64,000 bases of DNA from Acinetobacter sp. XH1741. Its GTDB lineage: Bacteria; Pseudomonadota; Gammaproteobacteria; Pseudomonadales; Moraxellaceae. The notes beneath the pieces were generated by a model. The model was given only the letters and a program-made list of their open reading frames with translations. It was not told where the DNA came from and searched no databases. A program made the position numbers and the translations under genes. Numbering within the stretch: position 1 is the stretch's first letter; each line of letters opens with the position of its first letter. Location of the stretch: positions 558,001 through 622,000 of the forward strand of contig NZ_CP157428.1 in NCBI RefSeq assembly GCF_041021895.1, written 5' to 3'. Shown here in pieces: positions 3,829 to 62,166 of the stretch.

Positions 3829-4899
3829 ATGACAGCATTTAATCAAAAAATTCAAACATTGCTAGATAAGGGGCAGGGCCCCGCTGCTCGGGCACTCGAT
3901 AGGTTGCCTCGAATAGCCCAAGAGTCTCTTGCTAAAGTTTTGGGATATTCTTATCAATATCCAGATCTCGATTCATTTACTAAATGTATGCTGGCTGTGC
4001 AAATTAAACAGGGCAAAGTAGGGTTTATTGGTTCAAATCCAATTGAATCAAGAAGAACCTTTGATGCACAAATGCAGGCTATACGACAAAAACCAACTGA
4101 CATTGAATCAGTAGAGGATATTCGCTTACCTCTACAAAGTGGAACAATCTTTGCTAGACTTTACCATCCTGCGCCTAATAAAAAGTTACCATTAATCGTG
4201 TTCTATCATGGAGGCGGGTTTGTTGTTGGTGGTTTAGATACTCATGATGAAGCTTGTCGTCTATTAGCTAAATACGCAAAAGTCCAAGTGCTTAGTATTG
4301 ATTATCCATTAGCGCCAGAAGTTTCACCACAACATTTAATTCAATCATGTGAAGATGCATTAGCATGGGTTTATCAAAATCGTAGACAATTAAAAATATT
4401 AAAAAATAGAATTGCTGTTGCAGGGGATAGTGCGGGTGGAAATATTAGTACTGTTGTGGCACAAAGATCAGTAAATAAAGCCTATGCGCCACAAGCACAA
4501 TTACTTATCTATCCAACAGTAGATTTCAAAAGTAGACATCCTTCTTTTTATGCTTATAACGAAGGCTTAGTTTTAACAAATACTGATATTGACTACGTTA
4601 CCCAATACTACGCAACTCAACATAGTGTAGAACTCGATGATCCAATTATTTCACCTACCTACGGCAATCTAAAGAAAAATCCTCCAGCTTTTGTGATTAC
4701 CGCTGGACACGATGTCTTACATGATGAAGCGAAAATATATAGTCATAAGTTAAGACAAAATGGTGTGAAAATGCATTACGAGGAATTTCCTGAACAGACT
4801 CACGGTTTTATTAACCTGACTCCGATTTCTAGAAAAGCAAAACGTCACACTATTGAAATCAGCAAAAACTTTAGAAAATTTTGGGATAAAAATAGTTAA
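3829..4899 (+). CDS. Alpha/beta hydrolase, HSL-type esterase/lipase
   Basis: 356 aa, with no signal peptide, so probably a cytoplasmic carboxylesterase. Residues 127-130 give the oxyanion-hole motif HGGG of the hormone-sensitive-lipase (family IV) branch. GDSAG at 199-203 holds the nucleophile Ser201. Asp295 (GHDVLHDE) and His325 (QTHGF) complete the triad. The N-terminal 90 residues form the cap. It starts at the ATG with AAGGAGA upstream. The natural substrate cannot be read from sequence; short-chain acyl esters are typical for the family. It stands alone, followed by the parS-like site. Confidence 0.85.
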   Translation: MTAFNQKIQTLLDKGQGPAARALDRLPRIAQESLAKVLGYSYQYPDLDSFTKCMLAVQIKQGKVGFIGSNPIESRRTFDAQMQAIRQKPTDIESVEDIRLPLQSGTIFARLYHPAPNKKLPLIVFYHGGGFVVGGLDTHDEACRLLAKYAKVQVLSIDYPLAPEVSPQHLIQSCEDALAWVYQNRRQLKILKNRIAVAGDSAGGNISTVVAQRSVNKAYAPQAQLLIYPTVDFKSRHPSFYAYNEGLVLTNTDIDYVTQYYATQHSVELDDPIISPTYGNLKKNPPAFVITAGHDVLHDEAKIYSHKLRQNGVKMHYEEFPEQTHGFINLTPISRKAKRHTIEISKNFRKFWDKNS

Positions 4900-4908
4900 A
4901 CATACTTA

Positions 4909-4940
4909 TTAATCCAGGTTTCACGTGGAACATGGATTAA
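4909..4940. other. parS-like ParB-binding site within a 32-bp near-palindrome
   Basis: Core GGTTTCACGTGGAACA (4917-4932). Its reverse complement, TGTTCCACGTGAAACC, matches the chromosomal parS consensus TGTTNCACGTGAAACA at 15 of 16 positions. Flanking arms TTAATCCA (4909-4916) and TGGATTAA (4933-4940) extend the symmetry to 32 bp with 14 of 16 base pairs matching. It is intergenic, between the esterase and the cyclophilin. ParB binding is inferred from the motif; parB itself is not in the window. Confidence 0.75.
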
Positions 4941-5043: not shown

Positions 5044-5601
5044 ATGAAAAAGCTATTGATGTTGTTTTGTCTAGGTTTAAGTAGTCACTCAGTGTGGGCT
5101 AATAGCTTAGTTGAAATGCAAACAAATTTAGGCAACATCGAAATAGAGTTATATGACGATAAAGCCCCGATCAGTGTGAATAACTTTAAAGGCTATATAA
5201 AGTCTGGTTTTTATAAAGAAACGATTTTTCACCGTGTAATTCCAGGTTTCATGGCACAAGGTGGTGGAATGACTGTAAATATGCAGGAGAAGACAACAAA
5301 AGCACCTATTAAGAACGAAGCAGGAAACGGTATTTCAAATACGCGTGGTACTTTAGCCATGGCGCGTACATCAGATCCAGATTCAGCTACGAGTCAGTTC
5401 TTTATAAATGTTGCAGATAATAAATTTCTTAACCGTTCGCCAGGAAATCCAGGATACGCCGTTTTCGGTAAAGTGGTAAAAGGAATGGATGTAGTTGATC
5501 GTATTGTTCAGGTTCCTACATCGAACTATGGCATGAATCAAAACGTACCAAAACAGCCTATAAAGATAGTAGACATAAAGATCAAAACATTGAAAAAATA
5601 A
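5044..5601 (+). CDS. ppiA: Periplasmic cyclophilin-type peptidyl-prolyl isomerase
   Basis: 185 aa. [19 protein letters not shown] is a Sec signal peptide (cleavage after Ala19), placing the enzyme in the periplasm, where it catalyses cis-trans isomerisation of Xaa-Pro bonds. The cyclophilin core is complete: [23 protein letters not shown] with the active-site Arg, [33 protein letters not shown], and [14 protein letters not shown]. Length and motifs fit the PpiA/RotA group. A single gene; the rRNA promoter begins about 90 bases after its stop. Confidence 0.88.
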
Positions 5602-20349: not shown

Positions 20350-21150
20350 TTAAGTTGCTAAAACCGCGTCGAGTACTTGTTGTTCGAGCTGAGCAAAAGT
20401 TATGCTTTTTTTACGCGGGCGTGGCAAATTAACTTGGAAACTTTGAGCAATTTGGCCTTTATCTAATAGGATAATACGGTCAGCTAATTGCACTGCTTCA
20501 CTCACATCGTGTGTGACCAAAATGGCAGTAAAACCTTGCTCTTTCCATAAACGTTCAATTAAGCTTTGCATCTCAAGACGAGTTAGTGCGTCTAATGCGC
20601 CTAAAGGTTCATCTAGCAACAAAATGCGTGGCGTATGAGACAGAGCGCGTGCTAAGGCTGTACGCTGGCGTTGGCCCCCTGATAGTTGTGAAGGCCATTG
20701 TCCCGATTTTTCTTTTAAGCCGACTTTTTCGAGTAATTCTTCTGCTAAAGCATGTTGGGCTTTAGGTAAACCTAGTTGAACATTTTGAAGAATATTTCTC
20801 CAAGGAAGTAAACGTGGGTCTTGGAACATGACTCGAATATCATCGTTAGTAATGCCTTCACGCAAATGTCGGGCAGATTTAAATTTGATCTCTCCAAAAC
20901 TGGCTTTTTCAAGTTGGGCAATTAGACGTAATAGGGTACTTTTGCCACAACCACTGCGACCAACAATCGCTAAAAACTCGCCCGGTTGAATATGAAGGTC
21001 AAGATCTTCAAGGACCTTTACCTCGCCATAGAATTTATAAAGTTGTTCAATCAGAATTTCTGCGCCTACAACAGGCTCTTGTGATTCTGTACGGTTTTCT
21101 GGAATGAGCTCTACGTCATTCTGATTAATATTTAAATTCAGATTTGTCAT
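20350..21150 (-). CDS. ssuB: Aliphatic sulfonate ABC transporter ATP-binding protein
   Basis: 266 aa from the ATG at 21150, which has GGGAGCTGAAGAT in front; a longer frame from 21183 would run into ssuC. Walker [10 protein letters not shown], signature LSGGQRQR, Walker B RILLLDEP and switch His THDVSEA are all intact. Energises uptake of alkanesulfonates with SsuC and the binding proteins. The C-terminal [23 protein letters not shown] tail is typical of SsuB. Last gene of the five-gene operon. Confidence 0.93.
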
Positions 21151-21163
21151 ATCTTCAGCTCCC

Positions 21164-21961
21164 TTATTTTTGATAACCAGCATGCCAACGTAGTAAATAG
21201 CGTTCTAAAACCTGTGCTAACACATCTGCTAACTTACCTAATAGGGCATAAAGAAGAATACCAACCAGCACAACATCTGTTTGTAAAAACTCTCGTGCAT
21301 TCATAGTCATATAGCCAATACCTGCTTGTGCTGAAATAGTTTCGGCTACAATGAGTAGCACCCAAACCAAGCCTAAAGCAAAGCGTAAACCGACTAAAAT
21401 AGAAGGCATCGCACCCGGTAAAATGATTTCTTTGTAGAGTTGCCAGCGAGAAAGACCATAGCTTTTACCCATCTCAATCAATTGTGGGTCGACTGAACGG
21501 ATACCGTGATAGGTATTGATATAAATAGGGAAGAAGACCCCGACTGCCACTAAGAATAATTTGGCTGTTTCATCAATACCGAACCACAAAATTACCAGTG
21601 GAATAAGCGCAAGAGCCGGAATATTACGAATCATTTGTAAGGTGGTATCGAGTAGGGTCGAGGCAAAACGCGAAGAGCCGTTTAGTAAACCCAATAGCAA
21701 ACCTAAACCGCCGCCCACCAAAAGCCCAAGCAAGGCACGACCCGCACTTACTTTGACGTGATGCCATAGTTCTCCGCTCACCAAAAGATGCCAGAAAGCA
21801 GACACCACAGCAGTAGGGGCCGGCAAAATACGACTTTCTAAAAGTCCCGAACTTGATGCAATTTGCCAAATAACCAATAAAACAATAGGAAAAATCCAAG
21901 GCAGCAAACGCTGCCCGATTTGTCTTGTTCCACGTGAAACAATGTTTACATCTTTACTCAT
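21164..21961 (-). CDS. ssuC: Aliphatic sulfonate ABC transporter permease
   Basis: 265 aa, about six transmembrane helices, BPD_transp_1 type. The EAA loop reads [35 protein letters not shown]. It forms the inner-membrane channel for sulfonates, driven by SsuB. The start overlaps the ssuD stop by four bases (ATGA). The codons for N-I-V-S-R-G-T (residues 6-12) contain a perfect 16-bp parS match (21926-21941), so this coding sequence also carries a chromosome-segregation signal. Confidence 0.93.
21926..21941. other. Perfect parS ParB-binding site inside ssuC
   Basis: TGTTCCACGTGAAACA matches the chromosomal parS consensus TGTTNCACGTGAAACA at every position. It lies in the first 12 codons of ssuC. 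Together with 4909-4940 it makes two parS sites 17 kb apart. Confidence 0.88.
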
Positions 21962-23133
21962 GCAGGCTCCTTGACGGAACTATTTTGCTTCTTCTCGTCT
22001 GGAACATAGTTGTTGGCAATAATCTCACCAAATGGTCCGGTTAAATTTGGCTGAGCAAGTTTAGCTTGGGTCTCGATTGGTAATAGCGGGAATACTAACT
22101 CGGCAAAACGAATTGACTCTTCAAGATGTGGATAGCCCGAGAAAATAAAAGTATCAATACCAAGGTCTGCATATTCCTGAATACGAGCCGCAACTGTTTC
22201 AGGATCACCGACAAGTGCTGTACCTGCGCCACCACGGACTAAACCAATACCTGCCCAAAGGTTTGGAGAGACTTCTAGTTTGTCTCGGTTACCGCCGTGT
22301 AGTGCAGCCATACGTTGTTGACCGACCGAGTCCATTTGTGCAAATTTTTTCTGTGCTGCGGCAATGGTTGCATCATCCAGATATTGAATAAGTTCGTTCG
22401 CTGCTGCCCAAGCTTGCTCGTTGGTTTCACGAACAATGACATGCAAGCGAATGCCATAAGTTAATTTGCGGCCTTTAGTCTCAGCTTTAGCACGAACATG
22501 TTCGATCTTTTGTTTAACTGCTGCAGGTGGTTCCCCCCATGTAAGGTAAGTATCTACTTGCTCAGCTGCGAGATCGACCGCGACATCAGAAGAACCACCG
22601 AACCAAAGTGGTGGGTAAGGTTTTTGAACAGGCGGGTAAAGCAGTTTTGCATCATCGACTTGTAGGCGTTCACCATGAAAAGTAAACGCTTCACCCGTAT
22701 GCGAACGTGTCAAAATTTCACGCCAGATTTTTACGTATTCATTGGCAGTTTGATAACGTGTTGAGTGATCTTCATATAAACCATCACCACGTAGTTCTGC
22801 TTCATCGCCACCAGTCACTAAGTTGAGTAACACGCGGCCATTGGACAAACGGTCGAATGTTGCAGCCATACGTGCAGCCAAAGCTGGAGTTGTTACCCCT
22901 GGACGTAATGCGACTAAAAACTTAAGGTGCTGCGTTGCATCAATCAGACTCGCTGCGGTAATCCATGGATCTTCACATGAACGGCCTGTTGGAATAAGTA
23001 CGCCTTCGTAACCTAAATTATCAACCGCCACAGCAATTTGCTTCATATAGGCATGGTCAACCTGACGAGCGCCTTTACTTGTACCTAAATAGCGACTATC
23101 ACCGTGGGTAGGAATAAACCAGAAAATTTTCAT
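21958..23133 (-). CDS. ssuD: FMNH2-dependent alkanesulfonate monooxygenase
   Basis: 391 aa from the ATG at 23133, which has AGGT seven bases upstream (an ATG at 23139 is too close to it). Luciferase-like monooxygenase that uses FMNH2 and O2 to split C1-C14 alkanesulfonates into aldehyde and sulfite, giving sulfur for cysteine synthesis. [64 protein letters not shown] and LLNLVTGGD match E. coli SsuD through the whole length (E. coli 381 aa). No dedicated SsuE flavin reductase is in the cluster. Confidence 0.95.
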
Positions 23134-23159
23134 GTGCATTACCTATATGTCTATTGAAA

Positions 23160-24143
23160 TTACTTGGCACCCCAAACAGCTTGTTTAATGCTGATTGGTT
23201 TTGGAATGATGCCTTGTTGAGTAAAGATGTCTGCGAGCTGCTGCTGTTCAGCAATGACTTTGCTATTAAGGGGAGCTGCTGCTGATGGACGTGGACGACG
23301 TTTAATAAATAAGTCGCTGGTTGCAGGTTTAAGTCCTGTACTTTGGCCAATCGCGCTCGCCGTTTCGTTTTGATGGCTTTGAACCCATTTGTCTGCTTGA
23401 TTAATCTGTTTGATGAGTTCAGGAACAGCTTTAGGATATTGCTTAACAAAATTTGGAGCGGCTAAGTAAAAGGTATAGTTCGGGCTTAAACCTTTACCTG
23501 ATGCAAGAACACGAGCTTGATCTTCTAATTGTGCTGAAGCGAAGTAAGGATCCCAAATTGCCCATGCGTCAACAGCACCTTTTTGGAATGCTGCGCGAGC
23601 ATCGGCAGGAGTAAGCCAGATTGGCGTAATGTCGCTCCATTTTAGGCCTGCTTTTCGCACTGCTTGTACGAGTAAATAATGTGAGCTAGAACCTTTTTGC
23701 AGTGCAATACGCTTGCCTTTCAGGTCTTTAAGTTGAGTTACCTGTGAGTTTTTAGGAACTAAAATTGCTGATGCCAATGGTTTAGCCGCTTCATAGGCAA
23801 TGTAATATAAAGGTTTGCCAGCTGCCTGAGCGTAGACCGGAGGTGTATCTCCCGTGACTCCGATATCGAGTGAGCCAACAGCCAAGGCTTCTAAAATTTG
23901 AGGACCAGCAGGGAACTCATTCCACGTGATTTTGGCATTTGGAAATTCTTGTTCAAATAATTTTTGCTGTTTGGCAATTGCAAAGTTAATCGAGCTTTTT
24001 TGAAAACCGATACGAAGTTCTTTTACAGTTGGGTCAATTGCCCAAGCAGGTGCGGCAATTGTTAAACCTAATATAGCGACTGCGCTAAAGCGCTTAACTA
24101 ATTGAGTCCACTGACTCTTATAAAATAATGACTGATGTTGCAT
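23160..24143 (-). CDS. ssuA: Aliphatic sulfonate-binding protein, periplasmic
   Basis: 327 aa with a Sec signal peptide (cleavage near APAWA/ID, residue 35). Type II periplasmic binding fold of the NMT1/SsuA group: LRIGFQKSSINFAIAKQQK, WNEFPAGPQILEALAVGSLDIGVTGDTPP, LKGKRIALQKGSSSHYLL and ARAAFQKGAVDAWAIWDPYFA. It captures sulfonates for SsuBC. It is a close paralogue of the lipoprotein encoded immediately upstream. A short basic/proline insertion, KRRPRPSAAAP, near residue 281 marks a surface loop. Confidence 0.9.
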   Translation of the reverse strand: MQHQSLFYKSQWTQLVKRFSAVAILGLTIAAPAWAIDPTVKELRIGFQKSSINFAIAKQQKLFEQEFPNAKITWNEFPAGPQILEALAVGSLDIGVTGDTPPVYAQAAGKPLYYIAYEAAKPLASAILVPKNSQVTQLKDLKGKRIALQKGSSSHYLLVQAVRKAGLKWSDITPIWLTPADARAAFQKGAVDAWAIWDPYFASAQLEDQARVLASGKGLSPNYTFYLAAPNFVKQYPKAVPELIKQINQADKWVQSHQNETASAIGQSTGLKPATSDLFIKRRPRPSAAAPLNSKVIAEQQQLADIFTQQGIIPKPISIKQAVWGAK

Positions 24144-24214: not shown

Positions 24215-25183
24215 TTATTTCAGTTTTAAGATGGCATCTTGAATGGTGAGCTTATTAGGAATGAGCTTTTGCGCATAAAAGGCATCGGCTACATATTGTT
24301 GTTCTTGGGCTACCTTGTCAGATATGGGTTGAACGCCAAAACCCATACGTGAAATAGAAGTTTTGAGTACATCAAACTCAAGTGCCGTCGGTTTTTCGAG
24401 TAACTTCGCAGCTTCATCTTGATGTGAGCTGACCCATTGGGTGGTTTGGTTGAGTGTCTGCACAACTGTGTTTAAAACTTTTGGATTGTTCTCTGCAAAT
24501 TTACGATCGGCTAAATAAAACTGATGATTGCTCACTAAGTTTTCGCCCGTTGCTAAAACTCGAGCTTGAATTTGATGTTCAGCCGCGGCAAAGAACGGGT
24601 CCCAAATCACCCATGCATCGACAGCCCCTTTTTCAAAAGCAGCACGTGCGTCTGATGGTGGTAAATAAACAGGTTGAATATCACTTAAGTTCAGGTGATT
24701 TGCTTCTAAAACTTTCAATAAAAGATAGTGAACATTCGAGCCTTTATTCAGTGCGACACGTTTGCCTTTTAAATCTTGAATAGAGTGAATAGGAGAGTCT
24801 TTTTGTACCAGTAGAGCTTCTGCTTTTGGCGCAGCAGGTTGGTTTGCAACATAGACTAAATTTGGATTGGCAGCTTGAGCAAAAATAGGAGGAGCTTCAC
24901 CTGCTTCACCGAGCGAAACGCTTCCTACATTTAGACCTTCAAGTAATTGAGGACCCGCAGGAAACTCAACCCATTTTACTTGTACGCCTTGTTCTTTTAG
25001 TGCTTTTTCCAAGTCACCACGTGCTTTTAAAATAGGAAGGATGCCATATTTCTGGTATCCAATATTTAAAGTTGTTGTGGTGTGTTCCTCTTTTTTGGCA
25101 CAGCCACCTAGCATCATCACTCCCGCAAGGCTGGCAGCAATGACTGAATATTTTGCCCATGAAGTGGAATTTAAAAGTGCCAT
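24215..25183 (-). CDS. Aliphatic sulfonate-binding lipoprotein, SsuA paralogue
   Basis: 322 aa. Residues 1-28 form a lipoprotein signal (GVMMLGGC, Cys28), so this copy is membrane-anchored, unlike the soluble neighbour. The binding core repeats the SsuA motifs: NIGYQKYGILPILKARG, VKWVEFPAGPQLLEGLNVGSVSLGEAGEAPP, LKGKRVALNKGSNVHYLLL and ARAAFEKGAVDAWVIWDPFFA. By eye it is about half identical to the adjacent protein. First gene of the operon; the promoter must lie in 25184-25517. Two binding proteins with one permease suggests a widened sulfonate range. Confidence 0.87.
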   Translation of the reverse strand: MALLNSTSWAKYSVIAASLAGVMMLGGCAKKEEHTTTTLNIGYQKYGILPILKARGDLEKALKEQGVQVKWVEFPAGPQLLEGLNVGSVSLGEAGEAPPIFAQAANPNLVYVANQPAAPKAEALLVQKDSPIHSIQDLKGKRVALNKGSNVHYLLLKVLEANHLNLSDIQPVYLPPSDARAAFEKGAVDAWVIWDPFFAAAEHQIQARVLATGENLVSNHQFYLADRKFAENNPKVLNTVVQTLNQTTQWVSSHQDEAAKLLEKPTALEFDVLKTSISRMGFGVQPISDKVAQEQQYVADAFYAQKLIPNKLTIQDAILKLK

Positions 25184-47891: not shown

Positions 47892-49169
47892 ATGTTTCAA
47901 CTCGAACAATTAAAAATATCAATTATCGGCTTAGGGTATGTTGGGCTGCCTTTAGCGGTTGAATTTGGTAAACATAAACCTACAATAGGCTTTGATATAA
48001 ACCCGCAACGGATACGAGAGTTACAAAGTGGCTATGACCATACATTAGAAGTCACATCAGATGAGCTAAAACAAGTAGAACATCTCTCATACACTGCAGA
48101 TATCAATGATTTAAAAAATTCAAATTTCTTTATAGTTACTGTACCAACTCCAATTGATGATTTTAAACAACCGGATTTGTCTCCTCTCATAAAAGCATCG
48201 CAAAGTATAGCTAAAGTATTAAAAAAAGGTGATACCGTTGTTTATGAGTCAACCGTTTATCCTGGTGCGACAGAAGAAGTGTGCATACCTGAATTAGAAA
48301 AATATTCAGGATTAACATTTAATCAAGATTTCTTTGTAGGTTATAGCCCTGAACGTATTAATCCGGGTGATAAACAGCGACGCGTAACCAATATTTTAAA
48401 AATTACATCAGGTTCAACACCGTTAGTAGCTGATTATGTTGATCAAGTTTATAAACTAATCATTGAAGCGGGCACTCATAAAGCACCAACTATAAAAGTA
48501 GCTGAGGCTGCAAAAGTCATTGAAAATACACAAAGAGATGTCAATATTGCATTGATCAATGAACTGGCTCTTATTTTTAATAAAATGGGTATTGATACTG
48601 AAGATGTACTTAAAGCTGCAGGCACAAAATGGAATTTCTTAAACTTTAGACCAGGTTTAGTTGGTGGTCATTGTATTGGTGTTGATCCGTATTATTTAAC
48701 GCATAAAGCAGAGTCAATTGGTTTACATCCAGAAATTATTTTGGCAGCTCGTCGTTTAAATGATCGTATGGGTGAATATGTTGCAACCCAATTAATCAAA
48801 GAAATGGTAAAGCAGCGCATACAAGTGGTAGGTGCTCGTATATTAATTTTAGGTTTGAGTTTTAAAGAAAACTGCCCTGATATCCGGAACACCAAAATTG
48901 TAGATATGGTGAAAGCACTAAAGGAATACGATTTAGATCTTGATATTTACGATCCTTGGGTGGATAGTGCCGAAGTTGAAGGCGAGTATGGCTTAGCTCC
49001 AGTTACAGAATTAAAGCAAGATCATTATGATGCAATAGTTATTGCTGTTGCTCATGATCAGTTTAAAGCAATGTCGAGTCAAGAGCTCATTGCACTAGGC
49101 AAAGAGAAACATGTTTTATATGACTTAAAATATGTTTTGGATAAAGAACAAAGTGATATTCGACTGTAA
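47892..49169 (+). CDS. gna: UDP-N-acetylhexosamine 6-dehydrogenase
   Basis: 425 aa. Oxidises C6 of UDP-GlcNAc or UDP-GalNAc to the uronic acid with two NAD+. [18 protein letters not shown] (residues 9-26) is the NAD site, and the catalytic Cys261 is in [18 protein letters not shown]. The C-terminal domain has [19 protein letters not shown]. WbpA/TviB class. First gene of the rightward capsule transcript, as in many A. baumannii loci, where it provides GalNAcA. Confidence 0.92.
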
Positions 49170-49198
49170 AAATTACTAGTTATTAGCATAGGAATTTT

Positions 49199-50257
49199 AT
49201 GAAAATTTTAGTCACTGGTGGTGCAGGTTTTATTGGTTCTGCTGTCATTAGAAATATTATAAAAAATACTCAAGATGAAGTATTAAATATAGATAAATTA
49301 ACATATGCAGGCAATTTAGAATCATTGTCTGAAATTGATATGAATCCACGATATCAATTTGCACAAGTTGACATTTGTGATAGTGAGCGTTTAACAGAAA
49401 TTTTTAAAATTTTCCAACCGGATGCTGTGATGCATCTAGCAGCCGAGTCTCATGTTGATCGTTCTATTGATGGTCCCGCTGAGTTTATTACAACAAATAT
49501 TGTGGGTACTTATACATTATTAGAGGTTGCACGTAAGTACTGGCTACAATTAAATGAAGAAAAGAAAGCCTCTTTTAAATTTCATCATATTTCAACAGAT
49601 GAGGTTTATGGTGATTTAGAAGGTACAACAGATTTATTCACTGAAACGACATCATATGCGCCAAGTTCGCCGTATTCAGCAAGTAAAGCAAGTTCCGATC
49701 ATTTAGTTCGTGCTTGGCATAGAACATATGGTTTACCAACGATAGTAACGAATTGTTCAAACAATTATGGTCCATACCACTTTCCAGAAAAGCTCATTCC
49801 ATTGGTGATCTTAAATGCGCTGGATGGTAAGGCTTTACCGATTTATGGTAAAGGTGATCAGATCCGTGATTGGTTGTATGTGGAAGATCATGCCAAAGCT
49901 TTATATAAAGTTGTGACTGAAGGTAAAGTTGGAGAAACCTATAATATTGGTGGTCATAATGAAAAACAAAATATAGAAGTCGTGAAAACAATTTGTAAAA
50001 TTTTAGATGAATTAAAACCACAAAATAATCATCAACCTTATGAGACATTAATCACTTTCGTAAAAGATCGTCCAGGACATGATTTACGATATGCAATTGA
50101 TGCCTCAAAAATTGCAAAAGATTTAGGCTGGAAGCCTGAGGAAACATTTGAAACAGGCATTAGAAAGACTGTTGAGTGGTATTTAAATAATTTAGAGTGG
50201 TGCCGCCGGGTACAAGATGGCAGTTACCAAAGAGAAAGATTAGGTGTAAGTGCATAA
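49199..50257 (+). CDS. rmlB: dTDP-glucose 4,6-dehydratase
   Basis: 352 aa extended SDR. NAD motif [11 protein letters not shown] (residues 7-17), [11 protein letters not shown] with the active-site Asp-Glu pair, and [14 protein letters not shown] with the catalytic Tyr and Lys. Converts dTDP-glucose to dTDP-4-keto-6-deoxyglucose, the branch point to Fuc3NAc/Qui3NAc here. The stop overlaps the rmlA start by one base (TAATG). Confidence 0.96.
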
Positions 50258-51132
50258 TGAGTACAAAAGGTATAATTTTAGCAGGTGGTTCTGGGACACG
50301 TTTGTATCCGATCACAAAAGGCGTTTCAAAACAACTGTTACCAATTTACGATAAGCCAATGGTTTATTATCCATTGTCTGTTTTGATGTTGGCTGGTATT
50401 CGTGAAGTTCTTATTATCAGTACGCCAGACGATATTGATGGCTTTAAGCGATTATTGGGTGATGGTTCACAATTTGGTGTTGAATTAAGTTATGCGATTC
50501 AACCAAGTCCAGATGGTTTAGCTCAAGCATTTATTATTGGCGAAAAGTTTATTGGCGAAAGTAATGTCTGTTTAGTACTTGGCGACAATATTTTCTATGG
50601 TCAAGGTTTTACACCGATGCTACGCCAAGCTGTGGCCCGTCAAAAGGGTGCAACCGTATTTGGTTATCAAGTCAAAGATCCTGAACGTTTTGGTGTTGTT
50701 GAGTTTGATGAGCAAAAACGAGCAGTTTCATTAGAAGAAAAACCAAAACATCCAAAATCGAATTTTGCGGTTACAGGACTTTATTTTTACGATAATGATG
50801 TAGTGAAAATTGCAAAACAAGTAAAACCATCAGATCGTGGTGAACTTGAGATTACGACAGTGAACCAGATGTATCTAGACCGTGGTGATCTCAATGTTGA
50901 GTTACTTGGACGCGGTTTTGCTTGGTTGGATACAGGAACACATGCAAGCTTGCTTGAAGCGGCACAGTTTGTTGAAACCATTGAAAAACGTCAAGGTTAT
51001 AAAGTGGCGTGTCTCGAAGAAATTGCACTTCATAATGGTTGGTTGACGAAAGCTCAAGTGTTAGAAATTGGCCAAAGTATGAGTAAAAATGATTATGGTC
51101 AATATCTTGTATCTTTGGTGAATGAAATATGA
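50257..51132 (+). CDS. rmlA: Glucose-1-phosphate thymidylyltransferase
   Basis: 291 aa from the ATG at 50257. [37 protein letters not shown] is the nucleotide-binding signature. Makes dTDP-glucose from dTTP and glucose-1-phosphate. No rmlC or rmlD follows, so rhamnose is not the product; the next genes divert the intermediate to an amino sugar. ATGA overlap with the fused enzyme downstream. Confidence 0.96.
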
Positions 51133-51986
51133 ATTTAATTAGTTGGATTGATTTACCGAATTTAGGTGATGAGCGCGGTGGCTTAGTTGTTGCTGAGGCT
51201 AGTAAAAATATTCCTTTTGAAGTGAATCGTATTTATTATATTTTTGATGCAAAACCAGAAATACCACGCGGGTTTCATGCACATAAAGAGCTACAGCAAG
51301 TTGCATTCTGTATAAGAGGGAAGTGCAGAATGCTTATGGATAATGGTATTGATAAACAAGAGGTATGGTTAGAACAAGCCAATAAAGGCCTAATGATTCC
51401 TCCATTTGTTTGGCATGAGATGCATGATTTCTCAGAAGATTGCATCTTATTAGTACTAGCAAGTGAGCATTATGATGAAAGTGATTACATTCGAAATTAT
51501 GATGATTTTTTAATTGCAGTGAATCGCCCATTTATTCATCCGCTATCGGATGTACATTCGGAAAGAATCGGAAAAAATACAAGGGTTTGGCAATATAGCG
51601 TTATATTAAAAGATGCAATTATTGGCAATGGATGTAATATTTGTGCCCATACTTTAATCGAAAATGATGTCTTAATTGGTAATAATGTTACTGTAAAATC
51701 AGGAGTTTATATCTGGGATGGTATTACGTTAGAAGATAATGTTTTTATTGGTCCATGTGTTGCTTTTACTAATGATAAGAAACCACGCTCTAAGCAGTAT
51801 CCTGAAAGTTTTGCCAAAACGATAGTAGAGCAGGGAGCTAGTATAGGGGCTAATGCTACCATTTTACCAGGTATAAGAATTGGTCGAAATGCATTGGTTG
51901 GTGCTGGCGCAGTAGTAACTAAAGATGTTCCGGAAAATGCAATTGTAGTAGGAAATCCTGCAATTATTAAAGGCTATGTGAAATAA
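51129..51986 (+). CDS. Fused dTDP-4-keto-6-deoxyhexose 3,4-ketoisomerase / sugar N-acetyltransferase
   Basis: 285 aa with two domains. Residues 1-132 are a cupin ketoisomerase of the FdtA/QdtA (WxcM-like) type, with the catalytic His pair in RGFHAH (His50, His52) and a conserved [14 protein letters not shown]. Residues about 138-284 are a left-handed beta-helix acyltransferase with hexapeptide repeats ([62 protein letters not shown]). It would perform steps three and five of dTDP-Fuc3NAc or dTDP-Qui3NAc synthesis around the aminotransferase encoded next. The described bifunctional FdtD of Shewanella has, as I recall, the opposite domain order. Confidence 0.87.
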
Positions 51987-53101
51987 TGATTCCTTTCTTA
52001 GATTTAAAAAATATAAATAGTCAATATCGTGCAGAACTCATTGAGGCTTGTACTCGTGTCATAGACTCTGGCTGGTACATAGGCGGAAATGAGCTAGCTC
52101 AATTTGAACAAAACTTTGCGGAATATTGTGGCGTAAAATTTGCAATTGGGGTTGCAAATGGTTTAGATGCCTTGATTCTTACTCTTCGAGCATGGAAAGA
52201 GTTGGGGAAACTAAATGATGGTGATGAAGTAATCGTCCCGTCAAATACATACATTGCGAGTATTTTAGCAATCACTGCAAATAACCTAACTCCAGTTTTA
52301 GTTGAGCCGGATATTAATACTTATAATATCGATCCAAGCAAGATTGAAGCTGCAATTACTCCAAAAACGAAAGTAATCTTACCTGTTCATTTATATGGAC
52401 AATTAGCAGAAATGCCTGCAATCATGGCAATTGCAAATAAATATAATCTACTGGTTTTAGAAGATTCAGCTCAATCACATAGTGCTGAAATTAGTGGAAT
52501 AAAAGCTGGAAACTGGGGAGATGCTTCTGGTTTCAGTTTCTATCCTGGTAAAAATTTAGGTGCATTAGGGGACGCTGGTGCTGTAACCACTAATAATGAA
52601 GAGCTTGCACAAATGTTACGTGCTCTTCGTAATTATGGTTCTCATGAGAAATATAAAAATTTAGTACCTGGTGTAAATAGTCGTCTTGATGAAATTCAAG
52701 CTGCCATGCTAGATATTAAATTAAAATATTTAGATCAAGAAATAGCTCATCGCCGTAAAATTGCGCAATTATATTTGCAGCATATAGTAAATCCTTTAAT
52801 CAAATTACCTTTAGCTCAGAAAAATGCTGAAGAGTATCAGCAACACGTTTGGCATTTATTTGTGATTCGTACTGAGCATCGCGAGGCTTTACAAAAGTAC
52901 TTGGCTGAACATGGTGTACAAACTTTAATTCATTATCCTATTCCACCTCACAAGCAACAGGCTTATAAAGAATGGAATGATTTAAGTTATCCTGTATCTG
53001 AACAAATTCATGCTGAAGTGATGAGTTTACCTATGGGTCCTACATTAAGCATGAAAGATGCTGAAAAAGTAATTCAGATTTGTAATAACTTTAAAGTCTA
53101 A
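51986..53101 (+). CDS. fdtB: dTDP-3-amino-3,6-dideoxyhexose aminotransferase
   Basis: 371 aa, DegT/DnrJ/EryC1 PLP fold. Schiff-base Lys189 in [19 protein letters not shown] and the PLP-contacting Asp160 in [11 protein letters not shown]. Transfers an amino group to C3 of the keto sugar; the product goes to the acetyltransferase half of the preceding enzyme. FdtB and QdtB cannot be told apart by eye; the symbol is a best guess. Start overlaps the previous stop (TAATG). Confidence 0.88.
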
Positions 53102-53102
53102 T

Positions 53103-54359
53103 ATGAATCTACTAAAGACAAGTATATTAAATAGCGTGGCTGTTTTGATTAAAACAGCCACGATGTTTATTTTAAATAAGATTTTAGCTATTTATGTTGG
53201 TCCAGCAGGTTATGCTGCTATCGGTCAATTTCAAAACTTTATACAAATGGTGACAACTTTTGCAGGGAGTGCAATTAATACGGCAGTTATTAAATATACT
53301 GCTGAGTATTATGAAGATGAATTCAAACAACGAAATATTTGGAGGACAGCAGGAAGTATCGTTTTAATTTTTAGCTTAGTTTTTTCATTAATTATACTAA
53401 TTTTTCAAAAACAACTTTCTATTTACATTTTTCATACTGATCTTTATCAAACAGTTTTTGTTTGGTTTGCCGTATTCCTGACATTATTTACCTTCAATGC
53501 ACTTTTTTTAGCCATTTTAAATGGAAAAAAAGAGGTTTTAAGATTAGTTATTGCAAATATTGTGGGAAGTCTTTTTTCTTTAGCGGTTACGAGCCTTTTA
53601 GCCATAAAATATAGTTTATATGGTGCTTTAGTTGCACTTTCAATTTACCAGTCCTTAGCTTTTTTAGCGACCCTATTTTTATGCTATAAAGCCCAATGGT
53701 TTAAAATTTCATATTTGTTTGGAAAAATAGATAAATTCATAGCAAAAAAGTTTGCTGCTTTTGCATTGATGGCCTTGGTTAGTGCTATCTGTGTACCCCT
53801 TTCTCAAATGGCTATTCGAGGTTATCTAACTCATGAATATGGTGTAACTTATGCTGGCTACTGGGAAGCAATGATACGTTTAAGTGCAGCCTATCTAATG
53901 TTAGTGACTACAACATTAGGGGTATATTATTTGCCAAGACTTTCAGAATTATCAAGACTTGAGGAAATCAAATCAGAAGTTTACTTGGGTTATAAATTTA
54001 TATTTCCTTTAGCTGTCATCGGTGGTTTGATAATTTATAGCTTGCGTGATTGGATTATTACTTTATTGTTTACTAAAAGTTTTCTACCAATGCGTGATTT
54101 GTTTTTATGGCAAATGATTGGAGATTCTTTAAAAATTGGCAGTTGGATACTTGCATATTTAATGTTAAGTAAAGCTATGACCAGACTGTTTATCATTACA
54201 GAAATTGTATTTGCTTTTACCTCTATTTTATTTACGATTTTATTTACAAAAGTAATGGGTTTTGATGGTGTTTCAGTGGCTCACCTTGTAAATTACGCTT
54301 TATATTGGGGTGTCATGGGCTTATTTATATTTAAGCTTTTGAAAGAAAAAATGAGTTAA
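53103..54359 (+). CDS. wzx: O-antigen/capsule flippase Wzx
   Basis: 418 aa, about twelve transmembrane helices, MOP-type polysaccharide transporter. It begins with the family pattern SILNSVAVLIKTATMFILNKILAIYVGPAGYAAIGQFQNF. Translocates undecaprenyl-linked repeat units to the periplasm. Low GC compared with housekeeping genes, as is common for serotype-specific capsule genes. The wzx and wzy are the best markers for the K type. Confidence 0.9.
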   Translation: MNLLKTSILNSVAVLIKTATMFILNKILAIYVGPAGYAAIGQFQNFIQMVTTFAGSAINTAVIKYTAEYYEDEFKQRNIWRTAGSIVLIFSLVFSLIILIFQKQLSIYIFHTDLYQTVFVWFAVFLTLFTFNALFLAILNGKKEVLRLVIANIVGSLFSLAVTSLLAIKYSLYGALVALSIYQSLAFLATLFLCYKAQWFKISYLFGKIDKFIAKKFAAFALMALVSAICVPLSQMAIRGYLTHEYGVTYAGYWEAMIRLSAAYLMLVTTTLGVYYLPRLSELSRLEEIKSEVYLGYKFIFPLAVIGGLIIYSLRDWIITLLFTKSFLPMRDLFLWQMIGDSLKIGSWILAYLMLSKAMTRLFIITEIVFAFTSILFTILFTKVMGFDGVSVAHLVNYALYWGVMGLFIFKLLKEKMS

Positions 54360-54365
54360 AATATT

Positions 54366-55271
54366 ATGCTATTCAATGAACAACCTTTAGTTTCTATTGT
54401 TATACCTTGTTATAACCATGCAAATTTTGTACAAGATTGCATACAAAGTGTCATCACTCAAACTTATCAAAATATTGAACTTATTATTATTGACGATGGA
54501 TCTAAAGATGAATCTGTCAAAAAAATACAAAATTTGATCCAACAATGTAAAGAAAGATTTGTTAGATTTGAGTTCAGAAATCGACCAAATAAAGGATTAA
54601 GTGCAACTTTAAATGAGGCATTAGAATGGTGTCAAGGAGAATACTATTCTGTTATAGCTTCAGATGATATGTTGCTTAAGGATAAGCTAGAAATACAAAT
54701 TGACTTTTTTAAAAATAGTGCTGACTCGAGTATTGTAGGAGTCTTTGGAGGATATAATTTAATTAATAATTATAATTCCGTAATAAAAACGGTCCATATG
54801 AAAGAGAAAAAATATCTATTCGATGAAATATTTTTACATAACTTTGATTTACCTGCACCGACAGCTTTACTTAAGCTTGAGCATATTCGAGCCGTGGGTG
54901 GTTATAAAGAAGATTTAAAAATTGAAGACTGGTATATGTGGTTAAAGCTTACTGAAAATAACCATAGTCTAGTTTATCTTGATAAAGTTTTAGTAAATTA
55001 TCGTTACCATGAAAACAATTTTTCTAAAAACTTTCAAGTAATGAATATAGAAAGGAAGAAAGTTATTGATAATTTTTCATATCATAAGCTATATAAATAT
55101 GCTGACTTAAAAATTCAATGGTTAAAGGCAACAGACTATTTATATATAAATAAAAAAGATGCATTAGGTTTATTTAATAAGCTGTTTTTAGAAAATCCAA
55201 GTCAGATATTTTCAAAAAACTTTTTAAGATTTATGTTTCACTTTATGAAAGCGAGTGTTAAAAATAAATGA
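54366..55271 (+). CDS. Glycosyltransferase, GT2 family
   Basis: 301 aa GT-A fold. PLVSIVIPCYNHANFVQDCIQSVITQTYQNIELIIIDDGSKDES is the nucleotide-sugar domain; the DxD-type motif is ASDDMLLKDK (about residues 98-107). Adds one sugar to the lipid-linked repeat unit on the cytoplasmic face. The substrate is not deducible. Stop overlaps the next start by four bases (ATGA). Confidence 0.85.
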   Translation: MLFNEQPLVSIVIPCYNHANFVQDCIQSVITQTYQNIELIIIDDGSKDESVKKIQNLIQQCKERFVRFEFRNRPNKGLSATLNEALEWCQGEYYSVIASDDMLLKDKLEIQIDFFKNSADSSIVGVFGGYNLINNYNSVIKTVHMKEKKYLFDEIFLHNFDLPAPTALLKLEHIRAVGGYKEDLKIEDWYMWLKLTENNHSLVYLDKVLVNYRYHENNFSKNFQVMNIERKKVIDNFSYHKLYKYADLKIQWLKATDYLYINKKDALGLFNKLFLENPSQIFSKNFLRFMFHFMKASVKNK

Positions 55272-56347
55272 GAAAAATTGCTTTTGTGGTGCAGACATTT
55301 GATAAGCGCGATCGTGGTGGTGTATTGCGAGTGGTTACATATTTGGCTAATCATTTGACAGAAAAGTATCAAGTTGAAATAGTAAGCTGTGGTGTAATTA
55401 ATGAATTAGCTTATGATTTAGATGCTAAAGTTCATTTAAAATCTTTAAATATGTTGAAATACAACACAAGTTTCTATACAGGATTAAATAAAATATTTTG
55501 GTTTAAAGAGGCTTATAGGAATATCGAGTCAATTATTGAAGATGATATTGTTTGGATTACATCTTCTCCGCCATTATCCTTATTATTCTCTTTTTTGAAA
55601 TTTAAAAGAAAGACATTAAAGGTTATTGGGTGTGATCATACTTCTACTGTATATGAAAAAAATTTTTTAATACAAAAAACTCGTAATTTCCTACTTTCTA
55701 AACTAGATGTAATGATAGGTTTGAACCCGCAAGATGTAGAATATTATAAAAAAAATGGTATTAATTCAGTTTGGATTCCAAATGGAATTGATTTAAGTTA
55801 TATATCTAGTAGTGAGAATCATAAAAAATATCTAGTGTATGTTGGAAGGTTTAATGAAGAGAAACAACCATTTAAAGCTATTAATTTGTTCGTGAATAGC
55901 TCTTTAATAAATCAAGGTGTTATTCTTAAAATGTATGGGCATGGAGATTTTGAACAAGAAGTTAGAGATTATGTGATTGAAAATGGCTATAGTGCGAGTG
56001 TAAAGATTATTAAGGGTGAGGTTGATCCAGATGTTATTTATAAAGATGCCCTGGCTTTAATACTGACCTCTAGATTGGAGGGTTTTCCTCTAGTTTTACT
56101 TGAAGCGATTTCTCGAAATATACCTTGCTTAAGTTTTAAAACTCCTTATGGACCTTTAAATATAATTAAAGATGGAGAAAATGGTTTTTTTATAGAAGAT
56201 GATGTGAGTGATTTTAATAATAAATTAAATTTATTAGAAAAAATAGATCGATACAGTATCCATGAAAGTATTAAGTCATATGATATTTTAAATATTCTTA
56301 ATTTATGGGAAAAATTGTTAGATGAGGATAGCCTAAAGTATGTCTAA
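55268..56347 (+). CDS. Glycosyltransferase, GT4 family
   Basis: 359 aa GT-B fold. The N-terminal acceptor domain begins RKIAFVVQTFDKRDRGGVLRVVTYLANHL. The C-terminal nucleotide-sugar domain has YVGRFNEEKQPFKAINLF and the E-x7-E motif region LEGFPLVLLEAISRNIPCLSF. Retaining transferase for one linkage of the repeat unit. Overlaps wzy by eight bases. Confidence 0.85.
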   Translation: MRKIAFVVQTFDKRDRGGVLRVVTYLANHLTEKYQVEIVSCGVINELAYDLDAKVHLKSLNMLKYNTSFYTGLNKIFWFKEAYRNIESIIEDDIVWITSSPPLSLLFSFLKFKRKTLKVIGCDHTSTVYEKNFLIQKTRNFLLSKLDVMIGLNPQDVEYYKKNGINSVWIPNGIDLSYISSSENHKKYLVYVGRFNEEKQPFKAINLFVNSSLINQGVILKMYGHGDFEQEVRDYVIENGYSASVKIIKGEVDPDVIYKDALALILTSRLEGFPLVLLEAISRNIPCLSFKTPYGPLNIIKDGENGFFIEDDVSDFNNKLNLLEKIDRYSIHESIKSYDILNILNLWEKLLDEDSLKYV

Positions 56348-57383
56348 GCTTGTTATCGATAAAAGAGCTCCTTTCTTTTTTTTCCTTTCATGTATTCTGA
56401 TATTAATAGTTGCTAATAGAGGAGATACTCCAGATACTTTTGTATATTATTATATATTTAAGCATATTGATAGTTATAATCTAAAAAGTTTTTCAGATTT
56501 TTATTCGGTAACTGGTGTAGAGTTAGGCTATGGTTGGTATGCTTATATTATATCGCTATTTACGAATTCTGAAAATTTCCTATTTGCCATTTATTCGGCT
56601 ATTAATTTTTTAGTATTATATCTAATTTTGAGAAAATTTAATAAGAAAATTAGTGTATTATCATTACTTATATATGCATCCGGTCCCTTCTTTTTTATGC
56701 AGCAGTTTATGCAGATGAGACAGGGCTTAGCTGTTCTATTAGCTTTATATGCTATTATTGCTTTATTTCAGGATAGAAAATTTTCTGTTTTTATAGTATT
56801 TTCTGGACTAGCAATGTTAATGCATCAAGTATCTATTGCACTAGTTACTTTATCTTTTTTATTTTATATTATTTTTAATAAAATTGAAATCAGTAAAAGA
56901 AATTTTCTAATTTTGGCGATTCCATATCTTTTTATACTAACCATTTTGTTTAAATTTGTTTTTGTTTCAGTTTTAATGGGTATTTCAGGTAGATTAGAAG
57001 ATTATTATTATAGCTCTTATAATTATTCTGTGGGTATATTTTCCTTACCAAATTTGAAATCTTATATTCTGTGTATTTTTGTTTTATGGTTTTCTAAGAA
57101 AGAAATGTATTTAAATCGTTATTTTGTTTTTTTAATGTTTCTATTAATTACATCTGTTGCTTGTCGTATTGGATTTTCAGATTTTGCAATTTTGAGTGGG
57201 CGTTTCTCTACAGTTTTTGGTTTCGTTGAGGTAATTTTGTTTCCATTTATTATGTATGAGCTTTTTAACAATAAGGTGTTAGTTTATATTTCCATTTTTA
57301 TAATTTCGCTTTGTCAATTGTATATTACTTTGAATTTTCAAGCTCCTTATTTGATCGATAATTATTTTACCCCTTTATATTGA
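56340..57383 (+). CDS. wzy: Capsule polymerase Wzy, EpsG-like
   Basis: 347 aa, about ten transmembrane helices and a periplasmic loop. RGDTPDTFVYYYIFKHID, LSLLIYASGPFFFMQQFMQMRQGLAVLLALYAI and LAMLMHQVSIALV match the EpsG/Wzy pattern with the Q-x-R-Q-G motif. Joins repeat units in the periplasm by block transfer. Among the most AT-rich genes of the window, suggesting horizontal origin. Little else to assign. Confidence 0.85.
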   Translation: MSKLVIDKRAPFFFFLSCILILIVANRGDTPDTFVYYYIFKHIDSYNLKSFSDFYSVTGVELGYGWYAYIISLFTNSENFLFAIYSAINFLVLYLILRKFNKKISVLSLLIYASGPFFFMQQFMQMRQGLAVLLALYAIIALFQDRKFSVFIVFSGLAMLMHQVSIALVTLSFLFYIIFNKIEISKRNFLILAIPYLFILTILFKFVFVSVLMGISGRLEDYYYSSYNYSVGIFSLPNLKSYILCIFVLWFSKKEMYLNRYFVFLMFLLITSVACRIGFSDFAILSGRFSTVFGFVEVILFPFIMYELFNNKVLVYISIFIISLCQLYITLNFQAPYLIDNYFTPLY

Positions 57384-57390
57384 GATTGTT

Positions 57391-58425
57391 ATGAAAATTC
57401 TTTTTGTAATTAATTCTTTAAAGAACAAATCAGGAACTGAACGTGTTGCCATTGAACTGGTGAACAAGTTATCGTTCATGGCTAATTATGATGTTACTCT
57501 CTTAAACAGAGAGTCTCTTAAAAATAATACAGCTTATCCAGTTTCTGATAATGTAAATGTAGTAGCGATATCGGGTAACTTCTTTGAATTTTATAAAAAA
57601 TTAAAGATACATATTACTCTTTGTTCGTATGATATGGTGATTGTACATAATATGGGTAAATTATCTTTATTATGTGCTCTTTTACCTAAAATCAAAAAAT
57701 TGGTTACATTAGAGCATGTCTCTTTTGTTAGTAGGCCTAAAAAAGTTCAAATCTTAAGTAAATTCTTTTACAAGTGGATTGATCAGGTTGTTACTTTAAC
57801 ACAACAAGATAAAGAGCAATTTGATAAATTTCATTCTAAAGTTATTGTTATCCCCAATTTTTCACCCTTCCCTATTGTTTTAGAATCTCCGCTGAGTAGT
57901 AACCAAATTGTAACAATAGGTCGTTTAACTGATCAGAAAAATTATCTTCATTTATTGAAAGCTTGGAAAAAAATATATCAAATGATACCAGAGTGGCACC
58001 TTAATATTTATGGTGAAGGTGAACACAAAAAAATGCTACAAGATTATATTGAGGAGAACTCTCTACAGCGCGTTATTTTGAAAGGAAGTACATCAAATGT
58101 GCAAGAGGTATATAGACAATCAGACTTTTTTGTAATGTCGTCTAAGTATGAAGGTTTACCTATGGTTTTAGTAGAGGCGCAGAGCTTTGGTTTACCTATT
58201 GTTTCTTATGATTGTCCTTTTGGGCCAAGTGATGTTATTCAAAATCATAAAAATGGCTTGTTGGTTGAGAACCAAAATATTGAGGCATTGGCAGATGCGA
58301 TTTTACAACTTGCTTCCTCTCCAGATATGTTGGCGCAATTCTCACAAAATTCATTGATCAATGCTAAAAAATATCAGCCTGAACAGATCTTAAAAGTTTG
58401 GATTGAAAAGGTTTTGGAAGGTTAA
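57391..58425 (+). CDS. Glycosyltransferase, GT4 family
   Basis: 344 aa GT-B fold. ILFVINSLKNKSGTERVAIELVNKLS at the N-terminus, and VTIGRLTDQKNYLHLLKAWKKI plus SKYEGLPMVLVEAQSFGLPIVSYDCPFGPSDVI in the C-terminal donor domain. Of the type that often transfers Gal or GalNAc in Acinetobacter capsule loci (family-based hint only). Confidence 0.85.
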   Translation: MKILFVINSLKNKSGTERVAIELVNKLSFMANYDVTLLNRESLKNNTAYPVSDNVNVVAISGNFFEFYKKLKIHITLCSYDMVIVHNMGKLSLLCALLPKIKKLVTLEHVSFVSRPKKVQILSKFFYKWIDQVVTLTQQDKEQFDKFHSKVIVIPNFSPFPIVLESPLSSNQIVTIGRLTDQKNYLHLLKAWKKIYQMIPEWHLNIYGEGEHKKMLQDYIEENSLQRVILKGSTSNVQEVYRQSDFFVMSSKYEGLPMVLVEAQSFGLPIVSYDCPFGPSDVIQNHKNGLLVENQNIEALADAILQLASSPDMLAQFSQNSLINAKKYQPEQILKVWIEKVLEG

Positions 58426-58431
58426 AATTGT

Positions 58432-59259
58432 ATGTTTTCGGTTCTATTATCTCTATATCATAAAGAAAAACCTGAATATCTAGAAAAGTGTTTTGAAAGC
58501 ATTTGGGATAATCAGAGCTTGAAGCCAAGTGAAATAGTTTTAGTTTTAGATGGGCCTATTGGTGAGCAACTCACAACTTCTGTACAGGAGTGGCAAGTTA
58601 AAATCGGTGAAAAACTAAAAGTAGTTGCGTTACCGCAAAACGTAGGGCTTGGTAAGGCATTAAATGAAGGGCTAAAACAGTGTAGTGCTGATTGGGTTTT
58701 TCGTATGGATACTGATGATATTTGTACATCTGATCGGTTTGAAAAACAACTTGCTTTCATAAAACAAAACCCAGATGTTGTTTTATTTAGTTCTCAAGTA
58801 ATGGAATTTAATCAAGAAATTACTGATGCCGATGTAATCAAGTCTGTGCCTTTAACACATGACGAGATTAAAAAATTTGCACAAAAACGTTGTCCCTTTA
58901 ACCATATGACCGTTGTGTACAAACGTGATGTTATTTTATCTCTCGGAGGTTATCAGCATCATTTATTTATGGAAGACTACAACTTATGGTTACGTGTAAT
59001 TGGGAATAATTATAAAGTTGCGAACTTACCTGACGTCCTTCTATATGCTCGTGTTGGTAATGGTATGCACGCACGACGTAAAGGTTTCCAATATATTAAA
59101 AGTGAAAAACAGTTACTAGATTTAAAAAAACAACTAAAGTTACAAAATCCTGTATATGCTAATATGCTGTTTCTGATACGGTCTGCGTTTAGACTGTTGC
59201 CAGCAAATATGCTAGGTAAAATTTATAATACCTTTCTTCGTAAAGATATTAAAAAATGA
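58432..59259 (+). CDS. Glycosyltransferase, GT2 family
   Basis: 275 aa GT-A fold. FSVLLSLYHKEKPEYLEKCFESIWDNQ, IVLVLDGPIG, and the metal-binding motif FRMDTDDICTSDRFEKQ. By position immediately before the initiating transferase it may add the second sugar of the repeat unit, which is often the case in these loci (inference). Confidence 0.85.
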   Translation: MFSVLLSLYHKEKPEYLEKCFESIWDNQSLKPSEIVLVLDGPIGEQLTTSVQEWQVKIGEKLKVVALPQNVGLGKALNEGLKQCSADWVFRMDTDDICTSDRFEKQLAFIKQNPDVVLFSSQVMEFNQEITDADVIKSVPLTHDEIKKFAQKRCPFNHMTVVYKRDVILSLGGYQHHLFMEDYNLWLRVIGNNYKVANLPDVLLYARVGNGMHARRKGFQYIKSEKQLLDLKKQLKLQNPVYANMLFLIRSAFRLLPANMLGKIYNTFLRKDIKK

Positions 59260-59271
59260 GTGAATGAAAAT

Positions 59272-59892
59272 ATGAAACGTTTAGTAGACATAGTCATTTC
59301 TTTAATAGCTCTAACCGTACTGTCGCCAATATTTCTGATAGTTGCTTATAAGGTCCGTAAAAATCTAGGTTCACCAATATTCTTTTATCAAGAAAGACCT
59401 GGTAAGGACGGAAAACTATTTAAAATGATTAAGTTCCGTTCGATGAAGGATGCTTTTGACGCGCAAGGAAACCCTTTGCCAGATGAGGCTCGTATTACTC
59501 CATTTGGGCAGAAATTGCGTTCTACTAGCTTAGATGAAATGCCTCAGCTTATTAATGTGCTAAAAGGCGATATGAGCGTAGTGGGTCCTCGACCAATGTT
59601 AAAAGACTTTGTTGCTTTATATTCTCCAGAACAAGCGCGTCGTCTAGAAGTCCGTCCTGGAATGACCGGTTTAGCTCAGGTGAGTGGACGTAATGAACTG
59701 GATTATGAAGAGCGATTTAAATGTGACGTTTGGTATGTAGACAATCACAATGTTTGGGTTGACTTTAAAATTATGTTTAAAACAGTCAAAGTGATGTCAA
59801 GACGAGAGGGTATTAATGCACCAGGACATGTAGGACCATCTTTGTTTAAAGGTAATGATGGCCAAGAAAATGCCGATTCATCTGTAAAGTAA
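59272..59892 (+). CDS. itrA: Initiating sugar-phosphate transferase, ItrA-like
   Basis: 206 aa from the ATG at 59272; a GTG at 59260 is an alternative. One N-terminal membrane helix, MKRLVDIVISLIALTVLSPIFLIVAY, then the bacterial sugar transferase domain with FYQERPGKDGKLFKMIKFRSMKD, LRSTSLDEMPQLINVLKGDMSVVGPRPML and RPGMTGLAQVSGRNEL. Transfers the first sugar-1-phosphate to undecaprenyl phosphate. The exact Itr subtype, hence the first sugar, would need an alignment. Confidence 0.9.
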   Translation: MKRLVDIVISLIALTVLSPIFLIVAYKVRKNLGSPIFFYQERPGKDGKLFKMIKFRSMKDAFDAQGNPLPDEARITPFGQKLRSTSLDEMPQLINVLKGDMSVVGPRPMLKDFVALYSPEQARRLEVRPGMTGLAQVSGRNELDYEERFKCDVWYVDNHNVWVDFKIMFKTVKVMSRREGINAPGHVGPSLFKGNDGQENADSSVK

Positions 59893-59916
59893 ATTTTATA
59901 TCTTGAAATATTTCTT

Positions 59917-60792: not shown

Positions 60793-60851
60793 AATTTGTA
60801 GCTCTACTTAAGTATTTGTAAAAAATAATGAAGATATGAGTGGTTCAATAT

Positions 60852-60888
60852 ATTCTCTTCTCGTAGTGAGAAGAGAATTCTATAGAAT
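60852..60888. promoter_or_regulatory. Hairpin and palindrome upstream of ugd
   Basis: ATTCTCTTCTC (60852-60862) pairs perfectly with GAGAAGAGAAT (60868-60878) around GTAGT, immediately followed by the 12-bp palindrome ATTCTATAGAAT (60877-60888). No T-run, so a terminator is unlikely. The ugd ATG is at 60904. Confidence 0.65.
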
Positions 60889-60903
60889 AAAATCAGGTGT
60901 ACA

Positions 60904-62162: not shown

Positions 62163-62166
<4 letters not shown>
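60904..62166 (+). CDS. ugd: UDP-glucose 6-dehydrogenase homologue with degenerate active site
   Basis: 420 aa. Domain order is that of UDP-glucose/GDP-mannose dehydrogenases (N-terminal, dimerisation core [21 protein letters not shown] at 186-206, C-terminal [21 protein letters not shown]). However, the NAD glycine motif is GTTLHAG (residues 7-13), the usual catalytic GGSCFPKD reads GGENFSHD (243-250), and the PEF-L-R-E block reads PDVIQE (133-138). Only Lys190 of the catalytic set is kept. The name follows locus position; genuine UDP-glucuronate synthesis is doubtful. ATGA overlap with pgi. Confidence 0.8.

Follow-up and report, generated by a model that had tools for sequence, protein, structure and literature searches.

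A probable centromere element within a metabolic gene: a predicted parS site in ssuC of Acinetobacter

One of the parS sites of Bacillus subtilis lies inside the spo0J gene. In Pseudomonas aeruginosa, several parS sites are found near oriC, nine of ten are most likely located in coding sequences, and parS mutants have been made with the coding sequence unaltered, according to the accessible part of PMC4368675. The P. aeruginosa ParB protein also binds the half-parS heptamers GTTCCAC and GTTTCAC (PMC7022226, available part), and the promoters adjoining parS3 and parS4 are reported to be repressed at a raised ParB level (PMC5521831, in the excerpt available). In B. subtilis, the genes next to Spo0J sites are unaffected by the absence of Spo0J, as stated in the accessible sections of PMC7022226. 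Gene-embedded parS sites are already established and not unusual. Among the matches listed in a literature search, with subscription papers mostly outside its coverage, no title concerned the chromosomal parS of Acinetobacter. Here, we describe a predicted parS site in the ssuC gene of Acinetobacter and its fate across the genus.

The window, that is the whole 64-kb stretch of DNA analysed, corresponds to C1:558001-622000, where C1 is a contig of 3.83 Mb, and carries an ssu operon in the gene order ssuA-like, ssuA, ssuD, ssuC, ssuB-like (Table 1). In a pattern scan of the window, the stretch at 21926-21941 matches the 16-bp consensus TGTTNCACGTGAAACA with 0 mismatches, as had been claimed in a sequence-only reading of this DNA, from which the consensus was taken; the half-site definition GTTYCAC follows the available part of PMC7022226. 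About 0.00016 exact matches are expected in 64 kb on both strands (from base composition, 39% GC assumed). With up to three mismatches allowed, the window holds 10 matches versus 2.63 expected, and the maximum of 100 shuffles is 8. Within its 16 bp, the ssuC site has the two inverted GTTYCAC half-sites of the parS class. The same reading had placed it in the 5' end of ssuC, which stands, and in codons 6-12, which needs correction: the site starts at base 21 of ssuC and spans the third base of codon 7 through the end of codon 12. On the coding strand, the codons are ATT, GTT, TCA, CGT, GGA and ACA (I7-V-S-R-G-T12), the site beginning with the last T of ATT. The second site of the window is flanked by genes for an alpha/beta-hydrolase (3829-4899) and a cyclophilin (5044-5601). 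Elsewhere in the window, at 48001-64000, the GC content is 33-34% over sugar-nucleotide, glycosyltransferase and Polysacc_synt genes adjoining a Wzz/tyrosine-kinase gene; these features fit a capsule locus at a distance of about 72-88 kb from dnaA.

Table 1. Predicted parS sites and ssu genes, in window coordinates.
Feature	Coordinates	Strand or sequence	Basis or remark
Predicted parS site, 16-mer	21926..21941	TGTTCCACGTGAAACA on +; TGTTTCACGTGGAACA on ssuC coding strand	Pattern match
14-bp parS core, two inverted GTTYCAC half-sites	21927..21940		Core in 137/158 Acinetobacter ssuC
Second predicted parS site of the window	4917..4932	TGTTCCACGTGAAACC on minus strand	Full 14-bp core GTTTCACGTGGAAC at 4918-4931
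ssuC, aliphatic sulfonate ABC transporter permease, host gene	21164..21961	-	NCBIfam NF008470, above cut-off
ssuD, FMNH2-dependent alkanesulfonate monooxygenase	21958..23139	-	Upstream of ssuC, 4-base overlap with ssuC
ssuB-like ABC ATPase	20350..21183	-	Downstream of ssuC; best NCBIfam match NF008420, below cut-off
ssuA, aliphatic sulfonate binding protein	23160..24143	-	Reading frame and family match
Second ssuA-like binding protein	24215..25183	-	Named by likeness to first ssuA (inference)

The position of oriC was taken as that of dnaA (C1:532494-533873), which is 46 kb from the ssuC site. A whole-genome scan for the 14-bp core GTTYCACGTGRAAC finds eight copies, including that in ssuC, and zero copies of the reversed pattern; the expectation is about 0.04 per 4 Mb (from base composition, 39% GC assumed). 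The copies are at C1:325999, 477458, 516485, 530800, 539082, 562918, 579927, and 655900, all eight at most about 210 kb from dnaA. Four of them are genic (BCCT transporter, mutY, recF, and ssuC) and the other four are outside open frames, three as checked at 70 residues or more and one at 90 residues or more. The core is found in all 175 Acinetobacter genomes, with 1-10 copies per genome, and the reversed control in 1 of the 175. In 13 other genomes, complete or almost so and hand-picked for size of listing, 67 of 70 cores lie within 250 kb of dnaA versus 15% if they were uniformly placed. The clustering around the replication origin that is expected of parS is seen both here (8/8) and in these 13 others (67/70).

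Among the same 70 sites, the sole far outlier is located about 1.1 Mb from dnaA (G173:C1:1100342), and two further cores beyond 250 kb are at 271 and 285 kb. Inside recF, the core at C1:530800 reads FHVEP in another frame; it is situated about 1.7 kb beyond the end of dnaA. By coordinates, 12 of the 13 picked genomes have a core at a like distance past dnaA, the exception being G047; the recF placement itself was read in the window's genome alone.

The same genome encodes, at one rsmG-parA-parB locus (C1:2657183-2660719), a chromosomal ParA and ParB, the latter having DNA-binding residues of the parS type. In a structure-sequence alignment, the ParB protein matches ParB/Spo0J structures of Caulobacter and Thermus, the organisms being named in part after the paper on ParB and Noc cited below. 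In our own reading of the alignment, the equivalents of R173 and G201 are retained, Q162 is replaced by H, and S172 is replaced by A; Thermus Spo0J likewise has A at the S172 equivalent. R173 and G201 are described as absolutely conserved in ParB orthologues, and Q162 and S172 as parS-contact residues common to ParB and Noc, in the available portion of PMC7383237. At E <= 1e-40, ParB is detected in 173 of the 175 genomes, and the two without a match are fragmented assemblies. In all 39 genomes measured, with the contig taken as the chromosome, parB lies at 0.37-0.49 of the chromosome from dnaA. This terminus-side location of parAB, with the parS cluster at dnaA, is unexpected and less usual; par operons within the ori domain are called a conserved feature in the part of the review PMC7022226 that is available.

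SsuC was detected in 158 of the 175 Acinetobacter genomes at a threshold of E <= 1e-80, and the start region of ssuC was compared for all 158 in two batches of 150 and 8. The core is present at the same place of the gene in 135 of the first batch and 2 of the second, or 137 in all, and is absent in 21. In the 135 core-bearing genes of the first batch it lies 33 or 36 bases upstream of an LPW motif; the one gene of the 158 lacking this anchor, at whose locus no core was found, was scored as core-less and entered neither the codon test nor the tree. Both outer bases of the 16-mer match in 51 of the 137 core-bearing genes, one in 76, and neither in 10 (first base T in 59/137; last base A in 119/137). 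The exact 16-mer was rejected as the conserved unit because both outer bases match in only 51 genes, and the tightly conserved unit is the two inverted GTTYCAC half-sites. The conservation in other Acinetobacter ssuC genes that the sequence-only reading had set as a test is accordingly upheld for the 14-bp core and less so for the full 16-mer. Among the ssu loci compared, the core was not found in any of the 55 not named Acinetobacter, which are mostly Burkholderiales.

A tree built on ssuD-ssuC DNA and not on species, with 157 Acinetobacter sequences, seven outgroup loci of other genera, and some weak deep supports (0.56-0.85), contains six core changes; we interpret these as a single gain, at the base of the genus or close to it, and five losses. 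The outgroup loci come from genera more distant than, e.g., Psychrobacter, and the gain of the ssuC core could predate the genus base. The distance from ssuC to dnaA was taken, among the matches listed, in the 56 of 158 genomes with both genes on one contig; for this, a large contig counted as a circular chromosome, and the length of G047 was entered as a rounded 3.7 Mb. Among these matches, ssuC is at most 80.2 kb from dnaA in 50 of 50 core-bearing genomes, and at 64, 68, 69, 102, 131, and 353 kb in the six core-less ones. The three at 64-69 kb come from a single five-member clade whose site is decaying in situ, near-misses are kept in the cases at 102 and 131 kb, and no trace is left at 353 kb. 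Two further core-less genomes, with dnaA on another contig, have ssuC at least 139 kb off (contig extent from a named locus whose coordinates match) and at least 150 kb off, the latter with ssuC about 93 kb from parB. The core in ssuC is not indispensable, because it is absent in 21 of the 158 genes, including the clade of five with three members at 64-69 kb. A neighbouring RutR-like tetR gene was dropped as a proxy for the native locus (core with tetR 123, core without 14, tetR without core 7, neither 14), as short flanks and local changes blur these counts, and distance to dnaA was used as the measure for this reason.

These distances suggest that the ssuC site is retained only near the origin; a Fisher test of distance against core presence gives p = 0.0007, a descriptive value only, with related genomes taken as independent. 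A bolder proposal is that it marks the working edge of the centromere, being kept within about 80-100 kb of oriC and decaying once moved further; we consider this less likely than not, given that of the three far cases measured only one is a clean loss and two are near-misses. If true, the genus would constitute a natural series of centromere-distance experiments with parAB unusually near the terminus. Several lineages have lost the core, some with the operon far out, and genomes alone can thus probe the reach of parS from the origin.

The same distances bear on the possibility that ParB binds the site but that the site is retained mainly for ParB regulation of the ssu operon and not for segregation. 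One and the same gene hosts the core in 137 of the 158 genomes, and the reported repression, at an elevated ParB level, of P. aeruginosa promoters adjoining two parS sites (PMC5521831, excerpt) offers a precedent, yet the exact core is missing in all three genomes measured with ssuC more than 100 kb from dnaA, which fits a place-tied role. Moreover, the site lies in the interior of the operon, and the B. subtilis genes beside Spo0J sites are unaffected without Spo0J (PMC7022226, available part). We regard regulation as an unlikely main cause of retention. Very unlikely, in our view, is an operator function, in which the palindrome would serve a local regulator of the ssu operon instead of ParB. 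A location inside the operon, from base 21 of ssuC, would suit such an operator, but the same 14-mer occurs around dnaA in unrelated genes (recF, mutY, and the BCCT transporter) and in intergenic DNA, and the exact core is missing in the three genomes with ssuC beyond 100 kb although their ssu genes persist.

The codons of the site make it possible to distinguish constraint on DNA from constraint on protein. Rows were chosen by peptide, i.e., Ser-Arg-Gly before LPW (n = 142; 136 with the core and six without); a first codon test on core-selected rows gave circular values of 100% at the site and was replaced, and the 135 core-selected rows were used solely for body columns, flanks, and background codon use. 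At the site, TCA is used in 140/142 rows, CGT in 141/142, and GGA in 142/142, versus gene-body usage of 0.21, 0.52, and 0.13, respectively. In 132 conserved four- or six-fold body columns, the median share of the top codon is 0.49 (four-fold) and 0.42 (six-fold), with a maximum of 0.88 (135 rows). Two-fold body columns reach shares of up to 0.97 (135 rows), and high top-codon shares alone are therefore not unique to the site. The SsuC N-terminal stretch around the site otherwise varies freely: no residue exceeds 37% in the six columns upstream or 42% in the two columns after Thr, and the nearest upstream in-frame ATG is 5 to 15 residues ahead of the site. Where Ser-Arg-Gly is present but the exact core is missing (six rows), four near-misses retain TCA CGT GGA and two, from one decayed clade, do not; core loss is partial in the rows still using these codons. 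The site is conserved beyond coding need, and the DNA and not only the protein is held fixed, because the site codons are near-invariant while four- and six-fold body columns stay at or below 88%. Both the freezing of synonymous codons, a check that the earlier reading had proposed, and selection on the DNA besides the protein, which it had claimed, are borne out by these fixed site codons beside body codons that have drifted.

These counts weigh against the idea that the VSRGT peptide is what is conserved, being needed by SsuC, and that the DNA match is secondary. The peptide is indeed near-invariant in core-bearing rows, one of which has VSRET, but six-fold Ser and Arg and four-fold Gly would hardly each settle on one codon in 140-142 of 142 rows on this account, and GGA is fixed even though it is a minor Gly codon of ssuC (13%). 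The tree has 20 core-less genes: in 12 of them, from three clades, the peptide has left no trace, and the other eight, in two clades, have altered forms, namely FSRGT, ISRGT, VSRGV, LSRGT, LSRGI, VSRGS, VARGS, and ASRSS; ssuC persists in all of them, and the 55 loci not named Acinetobacter also lack the core. This idea is a shade less credible than the operator. Least credible of all is a neutral relic of a common ancestor without present constraint: shared descent makes neighbours alike and one gain could account for all copies, but other conserved ssuC codons have drifted to the medians given above, and the first base of the 16-mer itself has likewise drifted.

The ssuC site is, in our judgement, highly likely to be a genuine parS, one of eight around oriC, and very probably a loading site for the chromosomal ParB; the parS identity put forward in the sequence-only reading finds backing in the sequence, the clustering around dnaA, and the presence of a chromosomal ParB. 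This stretch of DNA probably does double duty, as a gene and as part of a bacterial centromere. From the known ParABS mechanism we infer binding, spreading, and a role in segregation as follows. ParB dimers would recognize the two GTTTCAC/GTTCCAC half-sites and load with CTP, loaded ParB would slide onto the adjoining ssu DNA, and the site would add to an origin-centred ParB complex segregated by ParA. Spreading may also damp ssu transcription, as proposed in the sequence-only reading. The codons and the residues V-S-R-G-T would be fixed because selection for ParB binding acts within an otherwise freely varying SsuC N-terminus. This would account for the conserved motif VSRGT, which might otherwise be taken for a functional element of SsuC. 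The locus is a clear example of what is probably a centromere element within a metabolic gene, with enough species to separate DNA constraint from protein constraint.

Compared with P. aeruginosa, Acinetobacter is alike in having multiple sites near oriC, parS within genes, and the half-sites that compose the core. It differs in that parB is located 0.37-0.49 of the chromosome from dnaA (39/39), in that one site is tied to ssuC, and in that the Acinetobacter sites are known from sequence. The likeness to B. subtilis lies in a parS within an open reading frame, and the difference in the host gene, which there is not ssuC. What is less usual here is that codon freezing and several losses can be followed across the genus, and that parAB lies on the terminus side.
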